Source of the DNA: Gemmatimonadota bacterium
GTDB lineage: Bacteria > 4572-55 > J002
NCBI GenBank assembly: GCA_003697105.1
Contig: RFFQ01000053.1
Location: forward strand, 1-20,059
Direction: 5' to 3'
Length of the DNA: 20,059 bases
The stretch's first letter is position 1. Each line of letters opens with the position of its first letter. Below are positions 754-20,049 of the stretch, piece after piece. Both the position numbers and the translations under genes were made by a program. The notes under the pieces are model-generated. The model was not told the origin of the DNA, did not search any database, and worked only from the letters and a program-made list of their open reading frames with translations.

Positions 754-2118
754 ATGAGTCATTTTGCGATTATTGTGCACGGGGGTGCGGGGGATATCCC
801 CGATGACATGACGGCGGCATATCAAGAGGCATGCCGGTGGGCGGTGGAAACAGGTTATGAATGGCTCCGTGAGGGGCGATCGGCACTGGATGCGGTGGAA
901 GCGGCGGTACGTATTTTGGAAGACCACCCAGCCACCCATGCCGGCACCGGTGCCGCTCTGAATCGAGATGGAGACATTCAACTGGATGCCGGTATCATGG
1001 ATGGCTCGAATTTGAAGATTGGCGCTGTAGCCGCCGTTCAGCGTATTGCCAACCCGGTTTATCTGGCACGGCAGGTCATGGAACGCACCCCGCATATTCT
1101 GCTCGCGGGTGACGGTGCGCTTCAATTTGCCCGCCAGATTCACTTCCCCGAGTGCGAACCGGCACACTTAACGACCGAACGGCGTTACCATGAGTGGAAA
1201 CAGATGCACGAGACCGGCAATCTCAGTGCAGAACTCCGGCGGTATCTGGGTGATACGGTCGGTGCTGTTGCCCGGGATACTGCGGGAAATATCGCTGTGG
1301 CGAACTCCACGTGCGGGATTTCGTACAAGTTACCCGGTCGTGTGGGGGATACCCCCCTGCCCGGTAGCGGGTTTTACGCTGATAATCGGGTGGGGGGCGT
1401 GGCATGTACCGGCTGGGGAGAAGCCATTATCCGTACGGCGCTGGCAAAAACCACGCTTGACCTGTTACGAGATTACCAACCGGCTGAAGCCACCCAACGA
1501 GCTATTTATACCTTGCAAACGCAAGTGGGTGGCTTGGGCGGGCTAATTTTGATCGATGCCGCCGGTCACATCTGCTACGATTTTAATACCCCGCGTATGG
1601 CATTTGCCTACCAGTCCGCCAGTATGACCGCCCCGGTAATTGGGATTGACCCCGCGGACAAAATCGATTACCAACCGCGTTACCGGCGGGGTGTCGGGGC
1701 GATCTTGCTCAATGATGCGGGGCAAGTGTTAATCTGCCAGCGTCGCCATAACTCCGGCGAGTGGCAGTTTCCGCAAGGGGGCATGGAACTGGGGGAAACG
1801 CCGCTGGATACCTTCCGGCGGGAAGTATGGGAAGAAACCGGTACGGCGAAAGTTCAACCGCTGTTTCAATTGCCACTGGAGACCCGGTACCTTTGGCCAC
1901 CTGAAAAACGAGCGCAGGAATTCCATGATGGGCAAGTTCACACCTGGATTGTGGGCCGGTTTGAGGGTACGGATGCCGATTTTCATCCGACCGAAGAATT
2001 TACGGCGTTCCGGTGGGTCGATCTGGATCAAATTACCACCCACACCGCTGTGTACCGCCGGGACGTTTACCGGCAATTGATCGACCATCTACGCATGGTT
2101 CGGGAGGGATTCTGCTGA
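754..2118 (+). CDS. Isoaspartyl peptidase/L-asparaginase (Ntn-hydrolase) fused to a C-terminal RppH-like Nudix hydrolase
   Basis: Residues 1 to about 290 are a plant-type asparaginase/isoaspartyl aminopeptidase, which cleaves isoaspartyl dipeptides from damaged proteins and self-processes before a threonine. The predicted nucleophile is T168 in GDTVGAV. R196 and D199 (GRVGD) and T219-G220 (ACTGWG) stand at +28, +31 and +51/+52 from it, the same spacing as T179, R207, D210 and T230-G231 of E. coli EcAIII. Residues 310-450 are a Nudix domain: WQFPQGGMELGETP leads into a full Nudix box at 342-364 (G, E348, RE 356-357, EE 360-361, G363), closest in style to RppH/Ap4A hydrolases. I chose ATG 754 over ATG 742 because GAGG at 744-747 sits 6 bases upstream of it. 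The stop overlaps the next start by one base. The fusion is a single uninterrupted frame and both domains look intact. Confidence 0.85.
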   Translation: MSHFAIIVHGGAGDIPDDMTAAYQEACRWAVETGYEWLREGRSALDAVEAAVRILEDHPATHAGTGAALNRDGDIQLDAGIMDGSNLKIGAVAAVQRIANPVYLARQVMERTPHILLAGDGALQFARQIHFPECEPAHLTTERRYHEWKQMHETGNLSAELRRYLGDTVGAVARDTAGNIAVANSTCGISYKLPGRVGDTPLPGSGFYADNRVGGVACTGWGEAIIRTALAKTTLDLLRDYQPAEATQRAIYTLQTQVGGLGGLILIDAAGHICYDFNTPRMAFAYQSASMTAPVIGIDPADKIDYQPRYRRGVGAILLNDAGQVLICQRRHNSGEWQFPQGGMELGETPLDTFRREVWEETGTAKVQPLFQLPLETRYLWPPEKRAQEFHDGQVHTWIVGRFEGTDADFHPTEEFTAFRWVDLDQITTHTAVYRRDVYRQLIDHLRMVREGFC

Positions 2119-2891
2119 TGCGTGACCGACCGTGGACGATTCAACTGGGGGATACGCCGCTGGTGGCAGTGGCACTTCATGCGGGGCACGAGATTCACCC
2201 GGCGGTAGCCCGGCATCTCGCCATCTCGGAGGCGGAACGCTGGCAAGAAGAAGACCCGGCAACCGCACGATGGGTCGATCTGGCTTCTACTTACGTGTGT
2301 GTCCATCGTTCCCGCTTTGAAGTTGACCTCAATCGCGCTCGCGAGCGTGCCATTTATCGTGTTCCAGCGGATGCGTGGGGACTTACGGTGTGGCGGACGG
2401 TGCCACCGGAAGCAGTCATCCGGCAATCTTTACAGCTTTATGACCAATTTTATGCGGCGCTCGATGATCTATTTACTCAATTTCAAGCCCGTTATGACCG
2501 CTTTGTGATATTTGATCTACATACATATAATTATCGTCCTGAAATGGCGGATTGGCGTATCCAACCGGATATTGAAATCGGTACGAAAAAGATGCCAGAC
2601 CGGTCGCGTTGGACGCCGCTAGTAGATCGATTGATCGATGACCTGCGTTCGTACGATTTTGGCGGGCGGCGATTGGATGTGCAAGAAAATGTTTATTATG
2701 GGGGCGGGTATTTCCCGGAATGGGTATATCGCACCTTTCCGGATTCCGCTTGTGTGATCACGCTGGAAATTCAGAAGTTTTTTCAGAATGCCGCTACCGG
2801 ACAGATTGACCCCGATTTGGCGCTGGCGGTGTTTAATCTCTTGAAATTTGTTGCCGCTGGTGTTATAGAAGAATTGAAGGCAGTCCCTTGA
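2118..2891 (+). CDS. N-formylglutamate amidohydrolase family protein
   Basis: The protein has 257 residues. HAGHEI (21-26), RFEVDLNRARERAIY (66-80) and FDLHTYNYRP (132-141) match the conserved blocks of the FGase family (HutG-like zinc amidohydrolases), with H21, H24 and H135 as likely metal or active-site residues. The classical member removes formate from N-formylglutamate in histidine degradation, but no hut gene is visible here and the real substrate may be another N-acyl amino acid. The start at 2118 (shared base with the preceding TGA, GGGAGG about 10 bases upstream) is preferred over the longer frame from 2013, which would overlap the Nudix domain. Translation is probably coupled to the peptidase-Nudix gene. 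No signal peptide is seen; likely cytoplasmic. Confidence 0.78.
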   Translation: MRDRPWTIQLGDTPLVAVALHAGHEIHPAVARHLAISEAERWQEEDPATARWVDLASTYVCVHRSRFEVDLNRARERAIYRVPADAWGLTVWRTVPPEAVIRQSLQLYDQFYAALDDLFTQFQARYDRFVIFDLHTYNYRPEMADWRIQPDIEIGTKKMPDRSRWTPLVDRLIDDLRSYDFGGRRLDVQENVYYGGGYFPEWVYRTFPDSACVITLEIQKFFQNAATGQIDPDLALAVFNLLKFVAAGVIEELKAVP

Positions 2892-2925
2892 AGTGTATTC
2901 TCAAAATATAGTATGGAGGTTGCTC

Positions 2926-4272
2926 ATGTCATCTTTACTTGCCGAAAAATTAACAGAGTTACACAACGCCGGAGTTGCACAGCCGATTTTAGACCGGTTG
3001 AAAACGCATATTGAGACCACGGAACCCTCCGGTTTAATCAATATTTCCCCTTACCGCATGGCAGATGAGTGGAATTTACCGCGGCGGGAGGTTTTGGATG
3101 CGTTTTTGTACGGAACCCGGTTCGGTCTGTTTGATCTGGAATGGCACGTTAAATGTCCTTCCTGCAAAGGTGCAACCGAAAAGAGTAAAGAATTGATGCT
3201 GTTAAAACCGAAATCGCACTGTGAATATTGCCGGATCGATATTCAGGCGGCATTTGATGAAGCGGTGGAGGTGGTCTTTCAGGTCAATCCGAATGTTCGA
3301 GAGTTGGAAACACCGATTCTGTGGGATGACTTTATTGCGTATTGGAAGTTATTTGAGGAAGTGGCGCGTTTTCGGGTCGATCCACATGCGTCGGGTGCGA
3401 TAAACATTACCTTTGAACCGGCGACGTATTACCTGATGGAAGGGACGCATCGCTCCGTGGAAGCATTGACTTTTGAGCCTGATCTGAAAACGGAGACTCG
3501 GGAAATTACGGTGCATTGTGGTCCAGAGGGCATGGAGTATGTTTTCCCCAAATTTTATGAAGCTGGTACGTACACTTTGAAGATTCAAAATGATATGGAT
3601 GAGCCTGCATTGTTTTTGTTGCAACAACAACAGGTTTATCCCTGGATTTCTGGAGCGCAGATAGCTTCCAATCAAAGTTTTCGGGATTTGTTTAGCTCGG
3701 AACTGATTTCCGCCGATGAGAGCTTTTCGGTGAAAAATTTGGTGTTTGTCTTCACGGATATTAAGGGATCAACCGCATTATACGAACGAATCGGGGATTC
3801 ACAGGCGTATCTGATTGTCAAACGTCATTTCCAAATTCTGACAGACACGGTGCGCCAGCATAACGGGGCGGTTGTCAAAACCATTGGTGATGCCATCATG
3901 GCGACCTTCCCCATTTCTACGGATGCCTTCCAAGCGGTGTTGGAGATGCAGCGTGCGTTTGATCAATTCAATTCCACGGGTGAAATTGATCCCCATGAAA
4001 TTATCATCAAAGTCGGTCTTCATCGGGGTCCCTGCATTGCCGTGACATCCAATGATCGGCTGGATTATTTTGGACGCACGGTCAATATTGCGGCGCGGAT
4101 TCAAGGTTTATCCACGGGACACGATGTGATGATGTCTAAGTTATTCTATGATGAACCGGCTATTACCCAACTGGTAGAAGCATCTGGCTGGCATGTTAGC
4201 TTTTCCCAAGCAGAACTTAAAGGGATTGATCGCTTGTACGATGTTGTTCATCTGACGGAACCGGGCAAATGA
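2926..4272 (+). CDS. Class III adenylate/guanylate cyclase with N-terminal DUF5939-like, zinc-ribbon region
   Basis: The protein has 448 residues. Residues 1-75 look like a small helical region (SPYRMADEWNLPRREVLDAF). It is followed by paired cysteines C77/C80 and C99/C102, a likely zinc knuckle, and a beta-rich segment to about 255; this arrangement resembles DUF5939 found before bacterial cyclase domains. The catalytic domain (270-440) has both metal aspartates (D278 in VFTDIKGST, D322 in KTIGDAIMATF), the K318 and D380 positions often linked with ATP specificity, and N387/R391 in the TVNIAARI block. It is therefore predicted active, making cAMP or less likely cGMP. There is no membrane segment. 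GGAGGT at 2915-2920 sets the start at 2926; an in-frame GTG at 2893 has no such site. Its last four bases overlap the next start. Confidence 0.85.
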   Translation: MSSLLAEKLTELHNAGVAQPILDRLKTHIETTEPSGLINISPYRMADEWNLPRREVLDAFLYGTRFGLFDLEWHVKCPSCKGATEKSKELMLLKPKSHCEYCRIDIQAAFDEAVEVVFQVNPNVRELETPILWDDFIAYWKLFEEVARFRVDPHASGAINITFEPATYYLMEGTHRSVEALTFEPDLKTETREITVHCGPEGMEYVFPKFYEAGTYTLKIQNDMDEPALFLLQQQQVYPWISGAQIASNQSFRDLFSSELISADESFSVKNLVFVFTDIKGSTALYERIGDSQAYLIVKRHFQILTDTVRQHNGAVVKTIGDAIMATFPISTDAFQAVLEMQRAFDQFNSTGEIDPHEIIIKVGLHRGPCIAVTSNDRLDYFGRTVNIAARIQGLSTGHDVMMSKLFYDEPAITQLVEASGWHVSFSQAELKGIDRLYDVVHLTEPGK

Positions 4273-13974: not shown

Positions 13975-16900
13975 TTAGCGCAGTAGTACCATCGTGCGCA
14001 CCAAGGTAACTTTTTCGGTTTGTAACTGGTACAGGTATAACCCGCTGTTCACGGGGTGACCTCGATCATCTGTTCCTGCCCAACGGATGGTGTAACTGCC
14101 CGCTTCTTGTGGATCGTCGATGAGGACGGCAACCGGTTGCCCCGAGAGATCGTACACCCTCAGTTTGACATGGCTGCGTACCGGGAGATCAAATGTGATC
14201 GTCGTTTGGGGATTAAACGGGTTGGGGTAATTCTTTAGGGCATAGGCGGTTGGCGTTTGGGTTTGGGGTTGTGCCGGCTCAACGGCAACCATTCCGATCT
14301 GAAATGAGCTTTCCTCGCTCCACATTGATCCGGCAAAAGCATGATCGACTGCCTGAACTGCCCAAAAATAATCACCTTGTGGCAGATTGGAGAGTGTCCA
14401 CGTGAGGTTTTGCCCGACATTCCCAATTGCCACGACCTGCCGATACCCATTTTGCACGTTGGTATGGGGTGCGACGATATTGAACGCCCCGGGCACCGTT
14501 CCCACTCGCAGATTGTAGCTAAGGGCAGCGGCGGGTGTTTCTGCATCGGTTGCCGGTTGCCACTGGAGGGTGACATCGGTATCACTCGATGCGGCGGTGA
14601 GGTCGGTGGGTGCGGAGGGGCGTTCATTCGGTTCAGCGCCGTCATTCCGGTAAATTTTGCTGGTGGGGGTTGTGCCTGCCAAGCCGGTGAGGAGGATATC
14701 CAAATCACCGTCACGGTCAAAATCTGCCCACGCCACGGCGCCGGTTTGGACATCCACAAAATTGGGGTCTATTTCGGTGAACGTGCCATTACCTTCATTG
14801 TGAAACAGCCGCGACGTCGGTAGTACCAACGTATTGCTACCCGTTAAGGCAATATCAAGCCATCCGTCGTTATCAAAATCCCCCCATTGGGCAGAACTGG
14901 CACTCACCGGAGTCAACTCCGCCCCTATATCGATAAATGCACCGTTGTCATTGCGGTAGATTTTCGCTTGCCCGATGGTAAACGCATTGCCGCCGGTGAG
15001 CAAAATATCAAGGTCTCCATCGTTATCAACATCACCCCAATCGACTGAACTTCCGTTGACTCCGATCAATCCCGCGTTTATCTCCGTGAACGTATCGTTG
15101 CTGTCATTGCGGTAGAGTTTGGTGACCGAATCGTAGGGCGGGAAGGCGTTATCCTTGATGTTGCCGGAAAGCAGAAGGTCGAGGTCGCCATCATTATCAT
15201 AATCTCCCCAAGCGACATCACTTTGATAGACGGGTTGCAGTTCAATATCACTTTCGTGAAAGGTATCGTTACCATCATTGCGGTACAGGGTGGTGGTGAA
15301 GATATAGGGGTCGAATATACCACCGGTTTCCACCAGTCCGCTCAGGAGGAGGTCGAGGTCGCCGTCGTTGTCGTAATCTCCCCAGGCGATTCCGCTTTGA
15401 TTCACGGGGATGAGTCCGGCTTCAATATCGATAAACGTTCCGTCATCGTTGCGGTAGATGGCACTGATCCGGCCATCTGCTCCCATACCGGTTAAGGCGA
15501 GGTCAAGGTCGCCATCGCGATCATAGTCGCCCCATGCCACGTCACCCGCACTGACCGCGGGGAATCCCGCATCTATATGGACAAAATCCCCGTGGTCATT
15601 CCGGTAAAGGAGGGTTACTGGATTGTTGGTAGCAGTGGTGCCGGTCAGGACAAAATCCAGATCGTCATCTTGATCATAATCGCCCCAAGCTACGGCGCTG
15701 TTGCTGACGCCAGTGATTTCCGCACCGGTATCCCGGAAAGGGTAGGCGTTGGAGATTGTGATGTAAAACGTATCAATGGGTGCGAAAGCAGAGCCCATCA
15801 GGCTTTGATCGAGGGTTTGGACGCTCCAAACATAGGAGCCGGTCGGTAGATTTTCCAGCGTGAAATGGCGTTCATGTCCCCGATTGCCGGGGCGAACGAC
15901 CTGTCTCCAGCCGGTGGCGGGGTCTGCCATGCCGGAAAGTAAAGGCTCGCCGTCACTCGTGTGGAGGTAGATGTTGTATGTCAGGGCAGGGAGGGGTGTT
16001 TCGGCATCCGAGCCTGCGCTCCATGAGAAGGTAACATTATCCTCCTCGATGTTGGCATTGATGGCGGAAGGGGGTTGGGGTAACTGATTTTCAGCGACAC
16101 CTTCATTGCGGTAAATACGGGTGATGCGGCTAAACAGATTGAGATAGCCACTCAGTAAGATGTCCAAATCGCCGTCATTGTCGTAATCACCCCATTCACA
16201 CGCGGAATTACGCAGGTTGGGCAGACCGGTATCCAGTTCGGTAAATTGATCATTACCTTCGTTTAGATAGAGTTTTGTTGTGCCGGTCACAAGCCCGTCA
16301 TTTCCGGTGATGAGGAGGTCTAAATCGCCGTCGTTGTCCACATCTCCCCATTTTCCGTCACCACCGGAAATACCGGTGAGATTTGCTTCAATATCGATTA
16401 AACTACCGTTATCGTTGCGGTAAATTTTGGAGATCATCGTGAGGGTTGTATCTAATCCGGCGAGGAAGAGATCGAGGTCACCATCGGCGTCGTAATCTCC
16501 CCAATCGAGGGCACCGAACTGTACCGGTTCTAAACTGACTGTGATATTGGGCACATAAACCCCTAACAGGTTGGTATAAAGGATGGAAACCGGGGTTTGA
16601 TCGAGCAAATTGAGTCCGGTGAGCACGATATCGAGGTCGCCATCGGCATCATAATCTCCCCAAGCGGCGGCGGAGTTCAGCACGGGCAGGAGTAACGCGT
16701 TGGTGTCGGTAAAGATATGGTCTCCTTCGTTGCGGTAAACTTTGGCATTAATAGCGAGAGAATCGCCAAAACCTGCCAGCAGGACATCAAAATCGCCATC
16801 GCCATCATAATCGCCCCATCGTGCCTCACCCAATTGGGAGGGTTCTAGGGTAATGCCGGTTTCGGTCAATCCGCTGTAAATGCGGGTGGTTGGGGTCAAT

Positions 16901-17235
16901 CCGGCGAGTCCGGTGAGGAGGATATCTAACTGCCCGTCATGATCAAAATCCACCCAATCGACGGAACCGGCGGCGGTATTTTCTAAATCTGCGTTGATAT
17001 TGACAAAGCTATCGTTGTCATCATGGCGATAAATGCGAGTGGTTGGGGTTAGGGGCAGGATTGTGGTTGTGCCATTGAGCAGAATGTCCAGATCGCCGTC
17101 ACTGTCATAATCACCCCAGCAGACATCGCTGTTTTGAACCCCGACAATGCCCGGGTCCACTTCGGTGAAGGTTTGGGCAAACAGGAACACCGGTAAGAAA
17201 AACAGAAAACTTCCAATACAAATGGATTTGAACAT
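13975..17235 (-). CDS. Secreted VCBS/FG-GAP repeat protein with two seven-repeat blocks, two Fn3-like domains and a type IX sorting domain
   Basis: The 1086-residue protein starts with a Sec signal peptide (hydrophobic 8-19, likely cut after A20). Seven repeats with the core WGDYDxDGDLDxLLTG lie at about 40-376, then an Fn3-like domain (386-495), seven more repeats (517-865), a second Fn3-like domain (872-980), a short PT/Q-rich linker and a C-terminal sorting domain (998-1086) beginning LKNYPNPFNPQTTITF and ending in VLLR. The DxDxDG cores are calcium-binding loops like those of integrin alpha-chain propellers. Seven repeats per block predict one seven-bladed propeller each. The C-terminus is the type recognised by the type IX secretion system, so the protein is probably exported to the surface. 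No catalytic domain is visible; a binding or adhesion role is inferred. GGAGGT is five bases before the ATG. Confidence 0.9.
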   Translation of the reverse strand: MFKSICIGSFLFFLPVFLFAQTFTEVDPGIVGVQNSDVCWGDYDSDGDLDILLNGTTTILPLTPTTRIYRHDDNDSFVNINADLENTAAGSVDWVDFDHDGQLDILLTGLAGLTPTTRIYSGLTETGITLEPSQLGEARWGDYDGDGDFDVLLAGFGDSLAINAKVYRNEGDHIFTDTNALLLPVLNSAAAWGDYDADGDLDIVLTGLNLLDQTPVSILYTNLLGVYVPNITVSLEPVQFGALDWGDYDADGDLDLFLAGLDTTLTMISKIYRNDNGSLIDIEANLTGISGGDGKWGDVDNDGDLDLLITGNDGLVTGTTKLYLNEGNDQFTELDTGLPNLRNSACEWGDYDNDGDLDILLSGYLNLFSRITRIYRNEGVAENQLPQPPSAINANIEEDNVTFSWSAGSDAETPLPALTYNIYLHTSDGEPLLSGMADPATGWRQVVRPGNRGHERHFTLENLPTGSYVWSVQTLDQSLMGSAFAPIDTFYITISNAYPFRDTGAEITGVSNSAVAWGDYDQDDDLDFVLTGTTATNNPVTLLYRNDHGDFVHIDAGFPAVSAGDVAWGDYDRDGDLDLALTGMGADGRISAIYRNDDGTFIDIEAGLIPVNQSGIAWGDYDNDGDLDLLLSGLVETGGIFDPYIFTTTLYRNDGNDTFHESDIELQPVYQSDVAWGDYDNDGDLDLLLSGNIKDNAFPPYDSVTKLYRNDSNDTFTEINAGLIGVNGSSVDWGDVDNDGDLDILLTGGNAFTIGQAKIYRNDNGAFIDIGAELTPVSASSAQWGDFDNDGWLDIALTGSNTLVLPTSRLFHNEGNGTFTEIDPNFVDVQTGAVAWADFDRDGDLDILLTGLAGTTPTSKIYRNDGAEPNERPSAPTDLTAASSDTDVTLQWQPATDAETPAAALSYNLRVGTVPGAFNIVAPHTNVQNGYRQVVAIGNVGQNLTWTLSNLPQGDYFWAVQAVDHAFAGSMWSEESSFQIGMVAVEPAQPQTQTPTAYALKNYPNPFNPQTTITFDLPVRSHVKLRVYDLSGQPVAVLIDDPQEAGSYTIRWAGTDDRGHPVNSGLYLYQLQTEKVTLVRTMVLLR

Positions 17236-17517: not shown

Positions 17518-17532
17518 AAGATGTGATAAGCT
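17504..17532 (+). promoter_or_regulatory. Promoter of the ParA operon
   Basis: TTGACA (17504-17509) is a perfect -35 box. The -10 element is less clear: TAAGCT (17527-17532) at 17-base spacing, or GATAAG at 15 bases, preceded by TG. The start codon is about 40 bases further on. Confidence 0.55.
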
Positions 17533-17573
17533 ACACACTTACTGCTAAATTTAGTTCTAAGGAGAAACCTGCA

Positions 17574-18398
17574 ATGGCATGTCGGATAATCGCATTTGTA
17601 AATCAAAAAGGGGGCTGTGGAAAGACGGCGACAACGGTCTCTGTCGGGTCTATTTTAGCGGAACGTGGCAAAAAAGTGCTATTGGTTGATGGTGATCCGC
17701 AACAACACACAACGTTGAGCGTTGGGGTCAACCCGTATCGCATTGAGCATTCCTTGTATGAGGCGATGCTAGACCCCCGCCAATTTGGCTACGAAAAAGT
17801 TCGGGTTAAGACAGCGTATGAGAATCTTGATTTGTTACCCGCCACGGATAATTTGTATGCCGTGGATTTGGATTTAGCCAGCGCCATGAACCGAGATGGG
17901 CGGATGGAGCGGTTGCTCAAACCTGCCATCCGGCACTATGATTATATTTTGATTGATTCCCCGCCGGCGCTTTCGCTCCTGACCATTAATATTTTGAATG
18001 CCGCCAAAGAGATTTTTATTGTGTTGCAAGCCCATCCGCATAGTTATTTGGGTTTGGAGATGCTCCTCCAAACGGTGGAGCAAGTCAAAGAAAATATCAA
18101 CCCCAAATTACGTATCACGGGCTTAGTATTGACGATTTTTGATACTGGGACGAATGTCTCTAAACGGATTCAAGAAAAGGTGCAATTGGATGATCGGGTT
18201 TCGGAATTTTTATTTCAAACGGTGATCCGGAAAAATATCACCCTTGCCAATTCCACAATGGCGCTAGAAGAAGAATATGAGGGAGTGCCGGTCTTTTTGG
18301 GTAAACCGATCAATCATTATGACCGGCATAGTAATTCTTCCAAAGATTATCATAAATTAGTTGACGAAATTATTCAGATGGAACTTGATGGTTCGTAG
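17574..18398 (+). CDS. ParA/Soj-family partition ATPase
   Basis: The 274-residue protein has the deviant Walker A box QKGGCGKTATT (11-21) with signature K12 and catalytic K17, the switch I region LLVDGDPQQHTT (36-47) and Walker B YILIDSPP with D128. Its end (GVPVFLGKPINHYDRHSNSS, then KDYHKLVDEI) also follows Soj-type ParA. Such ATPases dimerise on ATP, bind DNA non-specifically and move plasmids, chromosomes or other cargo. There is no N-terminal helix-turn-helix, so it resembles type Ib or chromosomal ParA rather than P1-type. AAGGAG is 9 bases before ATG 17574; the in-frame GTG 17523 lies in the promoter. No ParB with a helix-turn-helix is seen; instead an RHH protein and an unknown protein follow in the operon. 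Confidence 0.88.
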   Translation: MACRIIAFVNQKGGCGKTATTVSVGSILAERGKKVLLVDGDPQQHTTLSVGVNPYRIEHSLYEAMLDPRQFGYEKVRVKTAYENLDLLPATDNLYAVDLDLASAMNRDGRMERLLKPAIRHYDYILIDSPPALSLLTINILNAAKEIFIVLQAHPHSYLGLEMLLQTVEQVKENINPKLRITGLVLTIFDTGTNVSKRIQEKVQLDDRVSEFLFQTVIRKNITLANSTMALEEEYEGVPVFLGKPINHYDRHSNSSKDYHKLVDEIIQMELDGS

Positions 18399-18435
18399 CG
18401 TTTTCGGATTGATGAAATAAGAGAGGGTTTTGAGA

Positions 18436-18714
18436 ATGTCGCGTAAGTCTGGAAAATCCCAGTTTTTTGCTGGCGACCAGTATGATGAAGATGAATTTAT
18501 CCGGGTGAATTTCACCCTCCAAAATCGACAGATTGACTTTTTAAGCGATTTCTGCTATAATGTGCGAAAAGAGACTCGTTATAAATTGAATCGTTCGGAA
18601 ACGATTCGGGCTTGTATTGAGGTCATTCAAGAAAAAGTGGATGAGGGGTCACTCAAGTTTGAAGATGTTCGTAGTTTTGAAGACCTTAAAAATTTGCTTC
18701 ATGGTCATTTTTAA
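18436..18714 (+). CDS. Small ribbon-helix-helix (RHH) DNA-binding protein, possible ParG-like partner
   Basis: The 92-residue protein has a short basic then acidic N-terminal tail (1-21), a strand RVNFTL (23-28), a helix around 30-43 and a second helix beginning NRSETIRACIEVIQE (52-66). This pattern, with SETIR at the start of the second helix, is that of RHH (MetJ/Arc) domains. An unusual 16-residue charged stretch lies around the turn between the helices. In type Ib partition systems an RHH protein of similar size binds the centromere and represses the operon, so this is the probable DNA-binding partner of the ParA ATPase. GAGGG is 8 bases before ATG 18436; the TTG at 18430 is too close to it. 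The assignment is by pattern only. Confidence 0.62.
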   Translation: MSRKSGKSQFFAGDQYDEDEFIRVNFTLQNRQIDFLSDFCYNVRKETRYKLNRSETIRACIEVIQEKVDEGSLKFEDVRSFEDLKNLLHGHF

Positions 18715-18744
18715 CTCCATCAGGTGGTTTATAGGGGGCTTTGA

Positions 18745-20049
18745 ATGAGTCAAACATCGGAAATTTTATCAGAATGTTGGGAACACGTCCATAGTATTCG
18801 GGAATGTGTCAATGACCTGAGTGAAGAATCTTCGCTGGCGATTGCGGCCCAACGCCTTAAAATTATCTCCAAACGATTGCAGATGGAGATGAACACCATC
18901 GCCAAAAATCAGCAGAATTCCACGTATGAAGAACAATTTTCGTTGCTCGGGCAGGTCGTCCATAATTTGCAATTAATTGTGGATAATAAAAAGTTAGAAA
19001 CTATAAATAAGGCATTTTTTATCAGTGCTTTAGCGAATATGATGCAGGAATTTATGGACCCTGATTCTTTATCCGGCAAACTGTTTAATATGCAGAAGGC
19101 GGGCAATTATGAGATGGGCTATCTCAAATTGGAGACCTTCCGAAAATGGTCAACGGCGGCAGTTTCAGACCTTGGTAAAAATGGGGTCATGGTGATGCGA
19201 GACCTGACTACAAACGAGTGGAATGTTCATGCTTTTGGGGAGATTTCGCTCGGACAGACCATTGGTGCCTATGGTTTTGAACCGGTGGAGCAGGAAGAAT
19301 TCGTGGAAATATTTAAATCCATGATTTGTGAAGGATTAGCCGGTAACATCGTGCTCAATGAACCCGCCGGTGCCATGGCGGCGATTGATGATGCCCCGGC
19401 AGTGATTGCCGATCAGTTTGAGAAGATCGAAAAAGCACTTCGTGAAATTGAAAATTTGATGGAATCCTTCCCTGAGTTAGCGACTTCCGGTGTTCTCAAA
19501 CGGTTGAACCGGTTGCGCTACCGGTTGGAAATGGAGTTGTACTCCATTGCAGAGATTGAAGCCGGTGCCGGTGGAGAATTTGGTGGCGGGGTGAGTTTAG
19601 CCGACCAGATTATTGAAAATACAATTTTCATTCTGGATATTGGTAGTGCCACGAATGAAGATAAAGTCTCTTTGATTGCGGCGCTCTCTGGGATTATGTT
19701 GGAATTCACGGATTCGGCAACGTTTCCGGATAAACTCATCGGATTTAATGCCGTTGATGACAAAAAATTACAGGGATATGTCAAATTTGATTCTCTGGCG
19801 GAATGGTTTGCTTCCCGTAATGTGGAAACCAGCGATTATGGGGTGATGATGCTCTATTCCATCGATCATCAAGATTGGGATATTCATTATTTAAGCAAAA
19901 TGCAACTCCAAAACGCGATCAATTCGTATAATTTGGACAAGCTGCATCGGGATGAGATTCTGGGTAAATTTTCTAATTTCTTGACGGATGGGTTGAAGAT
20001 GAAACAGAGTACCATTAAAAAGCGTTTCCAACAATTGAACTTGATTTAA
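18745..20049 (+). CDS. Unknown protein built from two diverged copies of one domain, third gene of the ParA operon
   Basis: I do not recognise this 434-residue protein. It is an internal duplication: residues 125-198 and 344-417 align without a gap over 74 positions with 16 identities (GYxK, W, GVM, W, H, L, Y, EGL/DGL) and many conservative changes. The upstream helices also correspond (AAQRLKIISKRLQMEMNTIA at 34-53 and VLKRLNRLRYRLEMELYSIA at 250-269). Each half is a helical segment followed by a mixed strand and helix segment. A glycine/alanine-rich link (about 199-220) joins them, and a basic tail ends the protein. No signal peptide, membrane segment or known motif is seen; it looks acidic and cytoplasmic. 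AGGGGG is 6 bases before the ATG. It lies 30 bases after the RHH gene, so it is probably an effector, cargo or adaptor of the ParA system. Confidence 0.75.
   Translation: MSQTSEILSECWEHVHSIRECVNDLSEESSLAIAAQRLKIISKRLQMEMNTIAKNQQNSTYEEQFSLLGQVVHNLQLIVDNKKLETINKAFFISALANMMQEFMDPDSLSGKLFNMQKAGNYEMGYLKLETFRKWSTAAVSDLGKNGVMVMRDLTTNEWNVHAFGEISLGQTIGAYGFEPVEQEEFVEIFKSMICEGLAGNIVLNEPAGAMAAIDDAPAVIADQFEKIEKALREIENLMESFPELATSGVLKRLNRLRYRLEMELYSIAEIEAGAGGEFGGGVSLADQIIENTIFILDIGSATNEDKVSLIAALSGIMLEFTDSATFPDKLIGFNAVDDKKLQGYVKFDSLAEWFASRNVETSDYGVMMLYSIDHQDWDIHYLSKMQLQNAINSYNLDKLHRDEILGKFSNFLTDGLKMKQSTIKKRFQQLNLI

Follow-up and report, generated by a model that had tools for sequence, protein, structure and literature searches.

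The gene at positions 754-2118 on the forward strand of the window, that is, the whole analysed stretch of 20,059 nucleotides, encodes an isoaspartyl peptidase domain and an RppH-like Nudix hydrolase domain in one and the same frame. The join between the two looks real, and the explanation that we favor, with a probability of about 0.6, is that a lineage-specific gene fusion has brought two well-known enzymes together in one bifunctional housekeeping protein, rather than that a new type of system has arisen. The host, an uncultured member of a phylum that has hardly been sampled, has a draft genome of 199 contigs. The features that the argument needs are the following.

754..1647, +: isoaspartyl peptidase / class 2 (plant-type) L-asparaginase domain, residues 1-298 (Pfam PF01112, Foldseek, AF2)
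within 754..1647, +: predicted chains, alpha comprising residues 1-167 and beta starting at T168
934..939, +: T61-H62, corresponding to Phe66-Asn67 of EcAIII (alignment)
1252..1257, +: predicted autocleavage site D167/T168, corresponding to G178/T179 of EcAIII (alignment)
1312..1314, +: C187, corresponding to Gly198 of EcAIII, by which the STGG motif becomes STCG (alignment)
1648..1680, +: linker of about 11 residues, approximately residues 299-309 (DPADKIDYQPR; pLDDT and the ends of relatives)
1681..2118, +: RppH/NudH-like Nudix hydrolase domain, residues 310-454, including the stop codon (PF00293, NCBIfam, AF2, Foldseek)
1777..1848, +: Nudix box, GGMELGETPLDTFRREVWEETGTA (alignment with 23 RppH-type relatives)
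2118..2891, +: N-formylglutamate amidohydrolase-family gene, downstream (PF05013, E = 6.6e-22)
2893-4272: adenylate/guanylate cyclase domain preceded by an N-terminal DUF5939, part of this gene run

Two complete domains in one frame

The open reading frame runs without stops from the ATG at 754 to the TGA at 2116-2118 and encodes 454 amino acids, so that the coordinates first assigned to the gene are correct. Another in-frame ATG occurs at 742, but the start at 754 is favored, because GAGGGTGAG is found immediately 5' of it. Pfam places Asparaginase_2 at residues 5-292 and NUDIX at residues 310-437 of the protein, and since both matches exceed their curated cut-offs, chance is excluded. The original prediction that both domains are complete is borne out by the E-values of 1.9e-93 (PF01112, 313 bits against a cut-off of 27, profile positions 2-303 of 309) and 8.1e-23 (PF00293, 81 bits) and by the presence of the Nudix box.

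The best solved relatives of the asparaginase half are human ASRGL1 and EcAIII, and these are also what Foldseek retrieves with its AlphaFold model (TMt 0.92-0.94), in which the pLDDT is mostly above 90 across residues 1-300; plasmid-borne E. coli IaaA was left out of the alignment used for the modelling. When the protein is aligned with 65 relatives, the threonine triad T168/T186/T219 (T179/T197/T230 in EcAIII) and the substrate anchors R196/D199/G220/G222 (R207/D210/G231/G233) are all seen to be kept. The nucleophile position is occupied by Thr in 65 of the 65 relatives, and the residue before it, here D167, is Gly in 37 and Asp in 28. EcAIII/IaaA and human ASRGL1, both of PF01112, thus share with this protein the whole domain, its fold, the triad and the anchors, but they are without the Nudix domain that here follows at the C terminus.

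In the Nudix half, the box is complete (GGMELGETPLDTFRREVWEETG) with all catalytic Glu and Arg residues kept, and all 20 invariant columns (20/20) of an alignment with 23 RppH-type relatives are matched. The half has His where RppH has a near-invariant Gln, and Arg in place of Lys near its C terminus. The best NCBIfam model is RNA pyrophosphohydrolase PRK00714.1-5, with 98.6 bits, below its equivalog cut-off of 116, and further RNA pyrophosphohydrolase models give 79 bits (cut-off 118) and 76.6 bits (cut-off 139); as these cut-offs are missed, we name the half RppH-like and not RppH. The separately modelled domain has a pLDDT of 94, and the top 13 Foldseek matches to it are all E. coli RppH (TM ~0.8). 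With the RppH/NudH RNA pyrophosphohydrolases, and with plant-type Ap4A hydrolase, it has in common the Nudix box, the flanking Arg, the WQFPQGGM, GQ and EF motifs and the fold; unlike it, RppH/NudH is not carried on another enzyme. Bacterial Nudix domains that are likewise part of multidomain proteins are known from the C-terminal domain of MutY and from NrtR, where the domain is an adaptor or a sensor, in contrast to the present one with its retained catalytic residues.

Changed neighbors of the peptidase active site

It had been claimed that the threonine nucleophile and its partners keep the spacing seen in EcAIII. This holds for the triad and the anchors, but three near-invariant neighbors differ from EcAIII: Phe66 is replaced by T61, Asn67 by H62 and Gly198 by C187. 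Among these relatives the position of Asn67 is occupied by Asn, Asp (27 of the 65), Ser or Thr and never by His, the position of Gly198 by Gly (57) or Ser (8), and the position of Phe66 varies in a few distant sequences; the motif THAG is found once among all compared sequences, in the fusion protein only. In EcAIII, residues Phe66-Ile70 form the sodium-binding loop, and the side chain of Asn67 makes up, together with a water, the oxyanion hole for autocleavage (PMC9248843). For the equivalent Asn62 of the human enzyme, the proposed role is either to lock Thr168 or to keep Gly167 close to the site (PMC10852353). Where class 2 Ntn-asparaginases have Asn67 and Phe66 in this loop, the present protein has T61-H62, a pair of positions that is typical of the class and not strictly defining, as D, S and T also occur at 67 in relatives.

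By alignment, then, the Asn67 position is one that tolerates change. Because it is variable in the relatives, yet never His, self-cleavage of the fusion protein before T168 is probable rather than certain, and His62, Thr61 and Cys187 may impair or alter either maturation or activity.

If the effect of these residues is severe, the peptidase half would have lost its normal maturation and would act mainly as a dimerization scaffold, or would bind substrate, for an RppH-like Nudix domain that is active. The changes N67 to H62 and F66 to T61 fall in the sodium-binding loop, on which active site and autocleavage rely, that of G198 to C187 adjoins the catalytic T186, and none of the three is seen in the 65 relatives, except that a few distant ones vary at position 61. 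We nevertheless consider such an outcome unlikely, since a dead scaffold is expected to have lost some of T168, T186, T219, R196, D199, G220 and G222, all of which are kept, and since Asp in 27 relatives, and Ser or Thr in others, means that change at the Asn67 position is tolerated. Distinctly unlikely, in our judgment, is an undescribed architecture of an Ntn-asparaginase and an RppH-type Nudix enzyme, in which peptidase maturation and phosphohydrolase activity would be interdependent, owing to a changed site of maturation (His62, Cys187) and to a beta chain that bears the Nudix domain.

Distribution, gene context and the join

The fusion of Asparaginase_2 with an RppH-type Nudix domain is, as the original prediction had it, not a standard architecture, and it is known from one genome. 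Whole-protein searches of about 1,000 distinct genomes from many phyla, part of which scored the best candidates per genome and one of which listed only matches with E <= 1e-60, gave no second protein spanning both domains, while single domains were frequent. In a search of 84,980 species genomes with exact peptide patterns, the 80 top-ranking loci match one half or the other but never both. Among 72,556 plasmid records there is no match covering 80% of the query and none spanning both parts, and a scan of viral contigs gave no match. A divergent fusion could be missed by such searches; nor was the combination found in the literature searched. At 76 asparaginase loci, three of which are the fusion gene itself and a few of which duplicate each other, no other Nudix box was found alongside. 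Long reading frames opened in asparaginase relatives (L088, L095 and L101) contain no Nudix fusion, and a long Nudix frame (L022) contains no asparaginase.

The phylum is represented by two genomes in the set searched. The second has no Asparaginase_2, and the Nudix proteins read from it are, by their sequences, of other types. In the host genome the fusion gene is the only Asparaginase_2 gene and, of six Nudix loci, the only one of RppH type; from their sequences, we take the remaining five to be NrtR/NudF-like, MutY, IDI, MTH1-like and a CoA pyrophosphatase.

The ATG of the downstream amidohydrolase-family gene overlaps the stop codon of the fusion gene (TGATG), and the two are probably co-translated. 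Further neighbors are an inosine/xanthosine triphosphatase, i.e., a non-canonical NTPase, and an isoprenylcysteine methyltransferase-like gene. Together the neighbors suggest a loose house-cleaning theme; their order is not conserved, and those in the window had no match beside asparaginases in the other loci.

A gene run with an N-formylglutamate amidohydrolase-family gene and a non-canonical NTPase is in line with the idea that both activities serve one process or one compound, e.g., a conjugate of peptide and nucleotide that contains a beta-aspartyl bond as well as a phosphoanhydride, the fusion thus coupling two steps. We regard this as very unlikely, in that the neighborhood is not conserved, a second fusion was not found in the genomes searched, and we know of no substrate that needs both isoaspartyl peptidase and Nudix activities. 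That functionally associated enzymes are often linked by gene fusion (PMC4921024) is a general argument in its favor, but a fusion seen once, in a single genome, is weak evidence. The functional link that had been suggested for this protein, of isoaspartyl repair with cap hydrolysis, finds no support beyond the fusion itself.

Elsewhere in the window, the contig edge (1-295) encodes the C-terminal portion of a transposase of the IS200-like (Y1) type, whose Pfam match (E = 1.3e-4) falls slightly short of the cut-off; inside it, two exact 23-nt copies of the partly palindromic repeat CGCACACACCGGTGCGCCCCTAC lie in frame, 54 nt apart. A short frame at 322-620, MTHNFITNAPQRRLKSRIQ..., has an in-frame stop at about 520, apparent further reading beyond it and no Pfam match, and from its sequence looks like a decayed gene remnant. 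On the reverse strand, 13975-17235 encodes a protein of 1086 aa with FG-GAP repeats, which ends in a sorting tail of secretion type. At 17523-20049, a ParA-like ATPase is followed by two proteins without a Pfam match, one of 94 aa and one of 434 aa whose two halves look alike.

As regards the join, the asparaginase relatives end at the equivalent of residues ~298-305, and the join falls right after this normal C terminus. In the AlphaFold model, the strand at 295-300 belongs to the asparaginase domain and the pLDDT is low from residue 302, so the linker, earlier placed at 287-310, is shorter, and leads into Y310-R311 of the Nudix domain. Each domain was modelled on its own, because aligning the homologues of both together put the Nudix sequences out of place; when the full-length protein was modelled, its Nudix half had no homologues and low confidence, and we therefore make no claim about interdomain orientation. 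A separate Nudix gene with an internal start is rejected, as no in-frame start codon with a Shine-Dalgarno sequence exists near the join or before the Nudix part. An assembly or sequencing artefact, in which two neighboring genes have been merged through the loss of a stop or in a chimeric contig, has in its favor a single observation in a draft genome of many contigs, but is very unlikely in view of the uninterrupted frame, the natural domain end at the join, the lack of a usable start for a separate Nudix gene, GC and GC3 values that are similar in all four segments tested through the join, and relatives that, when searched for separate genes with a stop in between, turned out to encode the asparaginase alone, with no Nudix box found next to it at the loci searched.

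A probable bifunctional housekeeping enzyme

The bifunctional reading draws on the completeness of both domains, the matching folds, the join at a natural end and the even GC; what speaks against it are His62/Thr61/Cys187, the missed RppH cut-off, the exchange of Gln for His and the fact that a single fusion is known. Decay is unlikely because catalytic residues are retained on both halves, and retained function is favored because neither kind of enzyme has another representative in the genome.

On the bifunctional reading, the N-terminal Ntn-hydrolase would fold, dimerize and most likely cut itself before T168, whereupon the freed threonine would hydrolyze beta-aspartyl (isoaspartyl) dipeptides and, weakly, L-asparagine. 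As had been foreseen, cleavage at this site would leave the Nudix domain on the beta chain, the small subunit, and the predicted assembly is then (alpha,beta-Nudix)2. The Glu cluster of the Nudix box would, with Mg2+, remove phosphates from RNA ends with a 5'-tri- or diphosphate, or split dinucleotides of Ap4A type. The two sites would probably work on separate substrates, and the fusion would provide co-expression and dimerization, not channelling.

If the protein is real and active, it combines domains in a way not found in any genome or literature searched, and it carries on one chain the only Asparaginase_2 and the only RppH-type Nudix domain of its genome. It would then be a clear case in which to ask whether an uncommon fusion reflects a functional link, here between protein damage and the turnover of RNA 5' ends or dinucleotides, or chance co-expression, and His62 raises the question of how far the oxyanion hole for autocleavage of an Ntn-asparaginase can change.
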